DNA of 64,000 bases from an aff. Roholtiella sp. LEGE 12411 (lineage in GTDB: Bacteria > Cyanobacteriota > Cyanobacteriia > Cyanobacteriales > Nostocaceae), in assembly GCF_015206995.1 (NCBI RefSeq), contig NZ_JADEXR010000002.1, positions 1 to 64,000 of the forward strand, given 5' to 3'. Positions 53,320 to 58,815 of the stretch are shown one piece after another. Positions within the stretch are counted from its first letter, which is position 1. Each line of letters opens with the position of its first letter. The notes below the pieces were generated by a model. That model did no database searches, was not told the DNA's origin, and worked only from the letters and a program-made list of their open reading frames with translations. The position numbers and the translations under genes were made by a program.

Positions 53320-55005
53320 TCAACTCAATTGTTCATACTTAAATTTCCCTTTAATCAACTTGTTAAAGTATTGACCTTTGGACGGTGCATTGTCTAAGTC
53401 TTCCTTGACACTGGGAGGTACTTTGAAATACTCGTAAACACTTCCACTATCAAATTCAACAGTCAGTGTTTGAGTTGTTGGATCATAGCTAAATTCCTTA
53501 ATCACGCTGCTTTCAGGCTTCAGTAGAGGGAAGGCGATCGCATCTCGAATACTGGCACAATCAGTTAATAACATTACTAACCGATCAATCCCAATACCTA
53601 AACCACCTGTAGGTGGCATTCCATACTCAAGAGCAGTCAGAAAATCCTCATCTACACCTTGCGCTTCCAAATCACCAGCGGCTTTTCTCTGTGCTTGTGC
53701 TTCTAAGCGCTCTCTTTGGTCGATGGGATCGGTAAGTTCTGAAAAGCTGTTAGCAGTCTCGCGCCCCACTATAAATAACTCAAATCTCTCCACTAAGCCA
53801 GGCTTAGAACGGTGGGGCTTTGCTAAAGGCGAAATTTCTACAGGGTAATCAATTACAAAGGTAGGTTGAATTAAATTAGCTTCTACCTTTTCTTCAAAAG
53901 CTAAATTCAGTAACTTACCAATTGATTTGGCTTCATCTACACCAGGAATACTAGCATTTTTGCTTGCTGTTTTTGCTTCTTCCAATGTTTGGAAAGAATT
54001 GAAATCTAAGCGTGTAAATTCTTTGACTAAATCGTGCATTGTTACCCGTCGCCAAGGTGGTGTTAAATCTATAGGTTCCCCTTGGTAGGTGATTTGCAAT
54101 GTGCCGAGTACATCTTGGGCAACAGTGGTAATAATCCCCTCAGTTAGCACCATCATATCATTGTAGTCGGCGTAAGCTTGGTAAACTTCAATCGTTGTAA
54201 ATTCAGGATTATGGCGAGTCGAAATTCCCTCATTGCGAAAAATTCGTCCCAATTCAAACACCTTTTCAAAACCACCCACAATTAACCGTTTGAGATGGAG
54301 TTCTGTGGCAATTCGCAGATACAACTCCATTTCTAAGGTGTTGTGGTAGGTGGTGAATGGACGTGCATCTGCACCTCCAGCTTCACTTTGCAAAACTGGT
54401 GTTTCAATTTCTAGAAAATCCTGCTGTTCTAAATAACGGCGAATACCCGCAGTAATTTGGGCACGACGGCGGAAAGTTTGCCGCACTTCCGGGTTAACAA
54501 TCAAGTCAATGTAGCGCTGACGGTAGCGCTTAGCAACATCCGTTAATCCATGCCACTTGTCGGGTAGGGGCAAAAGGGATTTAGTGAGGATGGTGTATTG
54601 TTTGACGTAGACAGATAACTCGCCCTTTTCAGTCCGTTTGATAGTGCCTTTTGCTCCCAGGATGTCGCCGGCATCTGTAAGTTGTTTCAAATGATTAAAA
54701 GCATCGGCATCAATATCTGTCATGCCTTCTTGGATGCGATTTTTATCTAAATAAAGCTGAATTGTGCCGGTTTCATCTTGCAAGGTGAAGAAAGCCAGTT
54801 TACCGAAAACGCGACGCGCCATAATGCGTCCAGCAATGGCAACTTCTAAATCAACTTCTTCACCATTGGGTAAATTGGCAAATTGTTCTTGCAATTGCGC
54901 TGCATGATGGGTAGATTCCCAACGATAGGCGTAGGGATTGGTTCCTAGCTGCTTGAGCTGGTCTACTTTTTCCAGCCTGGCGGCACGGATATCTTCTTCC
55001 GACAT
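53320..55005 (-). CDS. lysS: Lysyl-tRNA synthetase (class II) with C-terminal KTSC domain
   Basis: This 561-residue enzyme charges tRNA-Lys. The N-terminal OB-fold anticodon-binding domain (about 55-140; [32 protein letters not shown]) is followed by the class II core: motif 1 [21 protein letters not shown], motif 2 [15 protein letters not shown], motif 3 [14 protein letters not shown]. Residues 499-561 are an extra KTSC domain ([33 protein letters not shown]), a small fold named after its place at the end of some lysyl-tRNA synthetases. The role of KTSC is unknown. Confidence 0.95.
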
Positions 55006-56626: not shown

Positions 56627-56706
56627 TTGGTCAAGGGTTAAGGGTTAAGGGTCAGGGGTCAAGGGTCAAGGGTTAAGAGTCAAGAGTCAAGGGTCAAGAG
56701 TCAAAA
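56627..56706. repeat. Long heptamer repeat array (TCAAGGG type)
   Basis: About ten tandem heptamers of the TCAAGGG/TTAAGGG/TCAAGAG set fill the gap between the divergent M48 and DinG-like genes. It is the longest such array in the window. Confidence 0.9.
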
Positions 56707-56813: not shown

Positions 56814-58370
56814 GTGATTGAGGCAGAAGTTCATTTGTCACTACATAACTTTTTGCGATCGCAGGCGGGTTTCCCTTCCTGGCCCCATCATTTGACGATG
56901 GCACGGTTGGTAGCACGCGCCTTGCGCTTAGGACGTAGCGCCTTAATTCAAGTAGGGGCAGTTTGTGGTTATCAAGGGCGCTATCGTACTAGTTTTGTCG
57001 CATCAGCATTGATGTGGCATGGGCCTGTAATTATTGTTGCTCAAGAAGTAGTGCAGCAACGCCTGCTGCAAGTGGAAATTCCTCGGCTACAGCAGTGGCT
57101 ACCAGCCAACAAACCGATTAGGACAGGTGACGCCTGGCCTGGTAGTGAGTTCCAAGGACTACTGTTGACTACTCCAGAAGCCTGGTTAAAAGGTCAGTTG
57201 AGTGAGGGCGATCGTTTTCCTCACGGTATTCCCACAATAATTGATGGGGTGGATGATCTGGAAGATTGGGTACGTCATCAGCTGACTCAAGCTATTCAAC
57301 CGCATGACTGGGATCAACTTATGCTCGCTTGTCCAAACCAAGCTGAAGCAATTCGCTCTGCACGGGTGCAACTGACACACGAACTGTTCCAGCATCCGAC
57401 TAATCCTTATGAGTGCTACCTAATTTCCCAGCCCGAAGTAGAGATTTTAAGCCATCTTTATTTAGTATTGGAGTCAGCCGATATACCTGATGTCTGGAAA
57501 CAATTTTGGCAACAATTTCAATACATAAATGAAAATATTTCTCTGGCCTTCTCCCCTCCTCTGTTCTGGGCGACAATTGCCCGTCGTCAAGGTTTATTTT
57601 CTTTGCACTACGCCCCAATCGAATTAGCGGAAATACTTTCGCCCATTTGGCAGCATCAACCTGTGGTTTTAATTGGCAGCGCTTTAGAGTCGGAAACAGA
57701 GGCTCCACTTTTCCGTGAGCGCTTGGGTTTGGACGATTTAACTTGCTTAAAATTTTCTTCAGATAGCCAAGCGGAAGCAATTCAACTGTATGTACCCTAT
57801 AAGTTACCCCTACCTAACACGCCAGAATTTCAAGCGGCATTTATTCACAAAGTCCGCACATTAGTTTGTCTAAGTGCTACATCACCAGGATTAACGGTTG
57901 TGTTAGTGGGAGATGTGCCACTCAAGTCTCAGGTAGGGGCGATTCTGGCCTCAGAGTTTGGTTCGCGGGTGCAGGTGGAAAAAACTTGTTTGGATGAAAA
58001 TGGTATTTTGGTCACTGGTTGGGAATTTTGGCGAGAACATCAAACAGTCTTGCCAGCACCTCAGCTGTTAATCATTGCTACTTTGCCCCTGCCATCTTTG
58101 GAAAATCCTTTGGTCGCTGGTAGGGTAGCTCACTATAAGCGATCGCATCAAGACTGGTTTCGTTTATTCTTATTGCCAGCTGCCTTGAATGAATTGCAAC
58201 GCGCGATCGCTCCGGTGCGAGAAAGTCAAGGTATCGTTGCTTTGCTTGATAGTAGAGTGGTTAACCGTAGTTATGGCGCTCAAATTCTTGCTGCCCTTAG
58301 TCCTTTAGCACGTATTAACTATCTTGACCCAAGTCTGTTTTCTAATAATAGTGAGGAAAATTCGGCGTAA
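56814..58370 (+). CDS. DinG-related helicase-like protein with degenerate motifs
   Basis: This 518-residue protein follows the layout of DinG-type superfamily 2 helicases and is usually described as a helicase C-terminal domain protein in cyanobacteria. The N-terminal part (LHNFLRSQAGFPSWPHHLTMARLVARALRLGRSALIQVGA) and the C-terminal LNELQRAIAPVRESQGIVALLDSRVVNRSYGAQILAALSPLARI align in order with DinG. The Walker A region reads GAVCGYQGRYRTS, the DEAH position IIDGVDDLE and the motif VI position LQRAIAPVRES, none canonical. It starts at a GTG. ATPase activity is doubtful; a structural or regulatory role is possible. Confidence 0.7.
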   Translation: MIEAEVHLSLHNFLRSQAGFPSWPHHLTMARLVARALRLGRSALIQVGAVCGYQGRYRTSFVASALMWHGPVIIVAQEVVQQRLLQVEIPRLQQWLPANKPIRTGDAWPGSEFQGLLLTTPEAWLKGQLSEGDRFPHGIPTIIDGVDDLEDWVRHQLTQAIQPHDWDQLMLACPNQAEAIRSARVQLTHELFQHPTNPYECYLISQPEVEILSHLYLVLESADIPDVWKQFWQQFQYINENISLAFSPPLFWATIARRQGLFSLHYAPIELAEILSPIWQHQPVVLIGSALESETEAPLFRERLGLDDLTCLKFSSDSQAEAIQLYVPYKLPLPNTPEFQAAFIHKVRTLVCLSATSPGLTVVLVGDVPLKSQVGAILASEFGSRVQVEKTCLDENGILVTGWEFWREHQTVLPAPQLLIIATLPLPSLENPLVAGRVAHYKRSHQDWFRLFLLPAALNELQRAIAPVRESQGIVALLDSRVVNRSYGAQILAALSPLARINYLDPSLFSNNSEENSA

Positions 58371-58599: not shown

Positions 58600-58815
58600 A
58601 TGGGTGAAGCAAAGCGTCGTAAAACCACACTTGGAGAAAAATACGGTCAAGAGACTCGGTTCTTGTCTTGGGTTCCCATCACTAAAACCCAAGCTGAACT
58701 ATTTGTCGCTTGGACTACTCGTGGTGCCTGGATAGGTATTGGTCTTATGGTTGTTGCGTGGGTGACTATCCGTTTTATCGGCCCAGCTTTTGGTTGGTGG
58801 CAAGTAGTCTTATAA
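58600..58815 (+). CDS. DUF2839 small membrane protein
   Basis: The 71-residue protein with start MGEAKRRKTTLGEKYGQE, a family hallmark, has one C-terminal membrane helix (WTTRGAWIGIGLMVVAWVTIRFIGPAFGWW). DUF2839 is conserved in cyanobacteria and has no known function. An earlier in-frame TTG at 58591 is rejected in favour of the ATG at 58600. Confidence 0.85.
   Translation: MGEAKRRKTTLGEKYGQETRFLSWVPITKTQAELFVAWTTRGAWIGIGLMVVAWVTIRFIGPAFGWWQVVL

Follow-up and report, generated by a model that had tools for sequence, protein, structure and literature searches.

The gene at positions 56814..58370 (+) of the window, the 64,000-nucleotide stretch of cyanobacterial DNA analysed here, encodes a helicase-like protein with degenerate ATP motifs, and it raises the question of where such a protein came from and what it is kept for. 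The missing ATP site is already published for the ortholog in Nostoc 7120: Cheng 2025 (PMC11981726), in the portion of the article available, named this type sDinG and reported it from three orders.

Loss of the motor motifs from a gene under constraint

The sDinG gene was defined by ORF calling, Pfam and NCBIfam models, and hhalign. It starts at GTG and encodes 518 aa on the plus strand; the initial annotation, which had described the frame as intact, was right on this as well as on coordinates and strand. A query of the genome of origin with the protein returned one place, this gene, and a search of the same genome for Helicase_C_2 likewise returned only sDinG. Helicase_C_2 was also the sole Pfam match (residues 417-497, 27.5 bits, cut-off 25.3), and the top NCBIfam match, YoaA, scored 80.7 bits, below the cut-off of 680. 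Among the best 80 of 200 matches, the closest named relatives were from Komarekiella and Nostoc, at 94-95% identity. Selection was assessed in 25 genes, comprising the window copy and 24 of these best-80 relative loci (300 pairs), and the median dN/dS was 0.10 (range 0.04-0.19). Purifying selection acts on sDinG. The lowest values were 0.013 at the former DEAH motif, 0.030 at the N-terminus, 0.032 at the former Walker A loop and 0.038 at the C-terminal block. The Arch region, which is shortened in the structural model and together with its linker spans residues 151-245 (57264..57548, +), had the highest (0.172).

The sequence surrounding the gene was also searched. No match to a LexA-like box consensus lay near or upstream of sDinG, and the window as a whole held 22 such boxes against 23 expected. 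Promoter and terminator scans gave numbers at chance level. About 11 heptanucleotide repeats (GGTCAAG) lie at 56629-56704, just upstream of sDinG. A reduced number of synonymous changes in the first 45 sDinG codons was considered as a special signal and set aside as probably ordinary, since a similar dip is present in the neighbouring M48 gene; in lysS the dip is confined to the first 15 codons. The lysyl-tRNA synthetase encoded at 53320-55005 (-) carries a C-terminal KTSC domain (PF13619, 83.8 bits).

The Walker A, DEAH and motif VI positions had been described initially as non-canonical, and alignment to canonical relatives bore this out, with all three strings falling at the canonical motifs. 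Residues 48-60 (56955..56993, +), once the Walker A loop, read GAVCGYQGRYRTS and lack the lysine of that motif; the former DEAH motif (residues 142-150, 57237..57263, +) reads IIDGVDDLE, and the former motif VI (residues 461-471, 58194..58226, +) reads LQRAIAPVRES. The canonical motif IV region is replaced by an sDinG-specific stretch, LVGDVPLK...EFGSRVQV (residues 364-388, 57903..57977, +). Motifs were counted in 176 sDinG sequences (an initial 157 plus 19 added later, a few of the total being partial) and in 20 canonical relatives. The Walker A pattern [AG]xxxxGK[ST] was found in 0/176 sDinG versus 18/20 canonical sequences, the two canonical exceptions being fragments, and motif VI in 0/176 versus 19/20. 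A DExH/D string was present in 3/176 sDinG versus 18/20 canonical sequences; two of the three were 'DEAD' at the motif II position and one was an unrelated 'DEGD'. Over the three motifs, the canonical exceptions were two fragments and one truncated row. When 62 sDinG rows were aligned with 11 canonical rows, the P-loop lysine was absent from all 62, and so were the iron-sulfur insert and its conserved cysteines. A scan of the window sDinG for a canonical ATP motif elsewhere in the protein found none. Because the pattern is kept across the whole class, the motif loss is not attributable to chance or sequencing error. Gloeobacter-like sDinG proteins carry faint traces of motif II, such as DGAH or DEAQ, as expected for decay from an active ancestor, and the former Walker A loop varies in length and sequence between sDinG lineages.

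On these alignments the ATP site of sDinG is judged to be dead. In E. coli YoaA, residues K51, C168 and D225 are needed in vivo, according to the available text of PMC8378479, and sDinG should therefore not manage the job of YoaA in the way that YoaA does it. The strong conservation of the former Walker A (dN/dS 0.03) and DEAH (0.01) segments among close relatives is what a cryptic ATPase, whose degenerate motifs bind or hydrolyse nucleotide non-canonically, might be expected to leave. Such an enzyme would, however, have to work with the P-loop lysine in 0/62 rows, with a loop that differs in length and sequence by lineage, with motifs I, II, III and VI gone together, and without the three residues that YoaA requires, and we consider it very unlikely.

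Descent, fold and distribution

A profile of 57 sDinG sequences was aligned by hhalign to 13 canonical YoaA-like proteins with a probability of 100% and an E value of 7.9e-46 over 470 columns. By this measure sDinG and canonical YoaA-like proteins are homologous and collinear over their full length, and the profile comparison shows that sDinG descends from a YoaA-like helicase of the DinG/YoaA/XPD family. The initial annotation had held that both length and overall order were kept; the order is, as the collinear match indicates, but the length is not (518 aa versus 636 in E. coli YoaA and 716 in E. coli DinG), since sDinG lacks the iron-sulfur domain and has a short Arch region. Against solved structures, the sDinG profile matched E. 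coli DinG with an E value of 9.2e-07, and the matches that followed were not significant.

An AlphaFold2 model of sDinG had a mean pLDDT of 60 and was usable over approximately residues 30-314, apart from weak loops at 48-54 and 242-245; residues 315-518 fell below 50. The area of the ATP site was modelled as the low-confidence loop 48-54 and a helix at 54-67, which may be compared with the published extra helix alpha3a that fills this site. Foldseek ranked the DinG structures of S. aureus and E. coli highest (6fwr, 8zef and 9ii8, E values 6e-13 to 2e-10). Whole-model TM-scores against DinG structures were low, at 0.35-0.40, because motor domain 2 was unmodelled. With residues 1-314 alone, VIA-align superposed 301 residues on 6fwr with a Z score of 15.9 and an rmsd of 6.1, and in the model motor domain 1 and the Arch thus match the fold of E. 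coli DinG. Motor domain 2 matches by sequence profiles, and a model of that domain alone had a mean pLDDT of 36.7.

These results agree with the conserved non-catalytic helicase fold proposed at the outset (hhalign probability 100%, Z 15.9, catalytic motifs lost, dN/dS 0.10, gene kept in 346/388 class genomes). The comparison with DinG structures that had been suggested gave a strong match for residues 1-314, the model of motor domain 2 being of low confidence, and the suggested survey across cyanobacteria found the motif loss throughout (Walker A and motif VI, 0/176 each). A canonical motif elsewhere in the protein and a poor match to DinG had been named as findings that would speak against the proposal; the former was absent and the DinG match was strong. 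We infer that the fold serves a different role, a possibility that the initial annotation had raised.

The PADLOC model typeIV_DinG (PDLC01439) gave sDinG 181.5 bits, as it might for the CasDinG of a type IV CRISPR system. CasDinG, however, keeps its ATPase; 7xf0, which was among the Foldseek matches, is an ATP complex. The same model gave E. coli YoaA 588 bits and E. coli DinG 515 bits; as both exceed sDinG, PDLC01439 is a general DinG model and can flag an ordinary DinG as type IV. Nine other window proteins were scanned and matched no Cas model; what they did match was a TPR model at 60.7 bits, DrmC at 17 bits and two PDC models. A CasDinG identity is disfavoured and appears exceedingly improbable. 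One scan for viral relatives returned six pattern matches, and none was confirmed by tblastn.

An initial search matched 99/194 genomes of the phylum: 88 of the 89 class genomes, and 11 from outside the class whose matches were canonical YoaA-like proteins. A subsequent profile search placed sDinG in 346/388 class genomes, and the smallest genomes, of 1.6-1.7 Mb, were among those that keep it. Of the 42 genomes without sDinG, 38 belong to family f26, which to judge from size and tree position may be Pseudanabaenaceae; no f26 genome was seen among the sDinG-matching rows of that search. The other four misses (G220, G364, G370 and G393) were drafts 83-91% complete. Helicase_C_2 was found in 7 of the 42 sDinG-miss genomes searched, over the cut-off in 4, in ORFs of 653-1173 aa. 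The lost catalytic motifs, the one family without the gene, and an internal stop in a few distant matches (G133 and G123, and four loci in another search) are features of a decaying relic or a pseudogene in progress. The median dN/dS of 0.10, the absence of a stop from most listed matches, and retention in 346/388 genomes, the smallest included, argue against decay, and we disfavour this explanation as highly improbable.

Canonical YoaA (>170 bits) was found in 9/194 class genomes and was not seen in the remaining 185, so where a cyanobacterial gene is annotated as a 'DinG helicase', the activity implied is likely to be wrong. Eight of the nine carriers (one with a fragment) belong to families f44, f51 and f52, which look Gloeobacter-like in size and tree position, and the ninth is G205 of family f47. 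All nine also matched in the sDinG profile search. The G205 gene (G205:C27:242834-244765, 430 bits), which is canonical YoaA-like and lies outside the Gloeobacter-like families, was perhaps acquired by transfer.

In a tree of 59 rows, 41 sDinG rows formed one clade (100/100, stem 2.18), within which 34 core sDinG rows also formed one clade (100/100) with the Gloeobacter-like sDinG at the base. Canonical Gloeobacter-like rows and canonical rows from outside the class formed separate clades. The tree gave sDinG no clear canonical sister, and the Gloeobacter-like sDinG rows were not clearly one group. A single duplication, with a single loss of catalysis in the duplicate, probably preceded the radiation of the class, since sDinG forms a class-wide clade and the early-branching Gloeobacter-like lineages hold canonical YoaA together with the dead copy; the long stem and the unusual composition of some rows call for caution here. 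The simplest reading is that the canonical copy was then lost in most lineages and sDinG was lost in f26. DinG and XPD proteins are studied as motors, yet cyanobacteria seem to have given up the motor early in their history while keeping the protein.

Retained residues, gene neighbours and a possible function

Because the parts needed for ATP hydrolysis were lost and yet nearly all sampled photosynthetic cyanobacteria keep the gene, sDinG probably has a job that does not involve motor activity. The columns that survived the loss of catalysis are pointers to residues worth mutating. Columns invariant in canonical proteins were scored as kept if present in at least 80% of 76 sDinG rows. By this measure 0/23 were kept in motifs I, II, III and VI, 1/10 in motif V, 2/27 from motif Ia through the iron-sulfur domain, 0/5 in the Arch, 5/13 from the start of motor domain 2 to motif IV, 1/7 in the region before motif V, 7/15 in the proline-rich/WF block and 6/10 in the C-terminal block. 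The ATP motifs (0/23) differed from the proline-rich/WF and C-terminal blocks combined (13/25; Fisher p = 3.3e-5), with the blocks picked post hoc and the columns non-independent. The end of motor domain 1 together with motor domain 2 covers approximately residues 246-505 (57549..58328, +), as delimited by sequence with poor models. The retained elements of motor domain 2 are a proline-rich stretch with DWF and LLP (residues 424-455, 58083..58178, +), which is taken to be the P-motif, and LLDxRxxxRSYG near the C-terminus (residues 478-488, 58245..58277, +).

Residues invariant in a set of 57 sDinG without Gloeobacter-like rows were E3, H7, R31, P334, N335, A379, G383, V386, P425, W448, F449, P455, D479, R481, R485, G488 and P497. 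Some of these positions, P334, N335 and V386 among them, are variable in Gloeobacter-like sDinG rows; P425, W448, F449, P455, D479, R481 and G488 were complete in all 76 rows. At the N-terminus (residues 1-46, 56814..56951, +), where the AlphaFold2 model places helices at 2-16 and 24-38 with low to modest confidence, W23, H25, L27, T28, R35 and R38 were additionally conserved in at least 90% of the 57, as were D367, L370 and R385 in the former motif IV area.

The explanation that we favour, and that could well be correct, is that sDinG is a pseudohelicase able to hold on to single-stranded nucleic acid, or to a partner, with no need of ATP. In this mechanism motor domain 2 would use the proline-rich stretch and the neighbouring W448/F449 to keep a static grip on single-stranded nucleic acid. 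The N-terminal helices, conserved and basic, would bind a partner, for which an SSB tail is one candidate, and sDinG would serve in replication or repair as a clamp, or as a platform for recruitment, that sits at single-stranded DNA independently of ATP. A static clamp or adaptor is favoured by the proline-rich block, W448-F449, the conserved N-terminal helix pair and an SSB of the same genome that ends in DDIPF, and by recA close by at 12 of 56 loci. This genome has two SSB genes (L200 and L201), with products of 120 aa lacking an acidic tip and of 188 aa with the DDIPF end.

In E. coli DinG, as described in the available text of PMC11981726, ssDNA crosses both motor domains and is held by two iron-sulfur-domain arginines. 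The P-motif and Y636 of motor domain 2 shape the ssDNA 5' end, the contacts with ssDNA in this domain coming from the P-motif and an aromatic residue before helix 5. The same text describes a predicted SSB-tail pocket in the N-terminal helices, with residues unconserved among DinG homologs, and an AlphaFold3 prediction for the Nostoc ortholog that placed ssDNA partly, on motor domain 2 only and with poor scores. Equivalence of W448 to Y636 in DNA stacking is only possible, since in the alignment Y636 falls on D447, one residue before W448, and a proline occupies the W448 position in both E. coli proteins, DinG and YoaA. Against a clamp, sDinG has lost the iron-sulfur-domain arginines that contact DNA, recA is near in one family only, f26 lives without sDinG, no LexA-like box lies upstream, and what motor domain 2 has retained may be no more than scaffold.

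The gene directly downstream encodes a DUF2839 protein (PF10999; 58591..58815, +; 74 aa from TTG, or 71 aa from ATG at 58600) that, to judge from a hydrophobic stretch, looks membrane-bound. DUF2839 was present in 88/89 class genomes sampled, two of these being weak, broken matches. In 49 of the 87 genomes holding both genes, DUF2839 starts 38-285 bp downstream of sDinG, directly behind it and in the same orientation; in 2 it lies within 5 kb (3-5 kb) and in 36 elsewhere. Direct linkage extends from family f23, with genomes of 1.6-3 Mb, to the family of the window itself. The one f26 genome examined for it, G193, lacks sDinG and retains DUF2839. The DUF2839 neighbour and the sDinG-less family give direct tests of function.

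The linkage in 49/87 genomes is also what a protein-only scaffold would predict, one that works, for example, with the DUF2839 protein and makes no contact with nucleic acid. Around the lost motif IV, the invariant A379, G383 and V386 and the positions conserved in at least 90% (D367, L370 and R385) suggest a new surface that such a scaffold could use. A part of these new conserved positions is, however, variable in Gloeobacter-like rows, 36/87 genomes hold the two genes apart and 2 more at 3-5 kb, DUF2839 persists in G193, and the proline-rich and DWF columns are retained. We regard it as a close rival of the clamp and a tentative explanation.

Other neighbours were surveyed at 56 loci with a 3-kb flank, each cluster being named from one member. 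A divergent prephenate dehydrogenase gene lay beside sDinG at 16/56 loci, divergent Psb28 at 12/56, and recA, downstream and convergent within the flank, at 12/56, all in family f23. These neighbours are lineage specific, and no firm function can be drawn from them. A functional tie to DUF1815, found near sDinG at some loci, was rejected, as DUF1815 is absent from several genomes that keep sDinG. An RNA-binding pseudohelicase in ribosome or RNA metabolism, like yeast Utp25, would fit the near-universal, housekeeping-like retention, including in genomes of 1.6-1.7 Mb, and a ribosome-assembly pseudohelicase with dispensable motifs is known (PMC9539457, in the text available). The detectable homology of sDinG is nevertheless to DNA helicases, and no RNA-linked family was recognised among the five identified neighbour clusters; we consider an RNA role unlikely.

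Returning to the ATP-free clamp, a more speculative overall picture is that sDinG could be a class-defining pseudohelicase of oxygenic cyanobacteria: a YoaA copy that dropped ATP hydrolysis before the radiation, outlived its active twin in almost every lineage and became indispensable in a role without ATP, possibly as a single-strand clamp tied to the membrane through DUF2839.

Relation to known systems

In the open-access literature we recognised nothing on experiments with sDinG, nor on its spread, its origin or DUF2839. The window protein shares with the sDinG subgroup of PMC11981726 a short three-domain form, a short Arch, the lack of an iron-sulfur domain and of ATP-binding residues, and occurrence in Nostocales. 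That report, in the part available, covers three orders and gives no origin; new relative to it are the class-wide spread, the probable single origin, with the tested rows in one clade, the early coexistence with a canonical YoaA paralog, the absence from f26 and the linkage to DUF2839.

YoaA is the best NCBIfam match of sDinG (80.7 bits), and the homology to YoaA-like proteins is collinear, but sDinG differs from it in lacking the Walker A lysine, DEAH and the Fe-S cysteines, and it scores far under 680 bits. Chi (HolC, PF04364) was not found in the genome of origin at E 0.1, which is weak evidence, as chi may also be missing where other phyla have canonical YoaA. The DinG proteins of E. coli and S. 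aureus are the top structural matches, but their helicase domains are canonical and they carry an Fe-S or an exonuclease domain. The D. radiodurans PriA pseudohelicase, as described in the available text of PMC4504706, is a replication-restart helicase that has lost its ATPase and kept DNA binding, a precedent for the clamp proposed for sDinG; it belongs to another helicase family, however, and its DNA binding was measured, whereas that of sDinG is a proposal.
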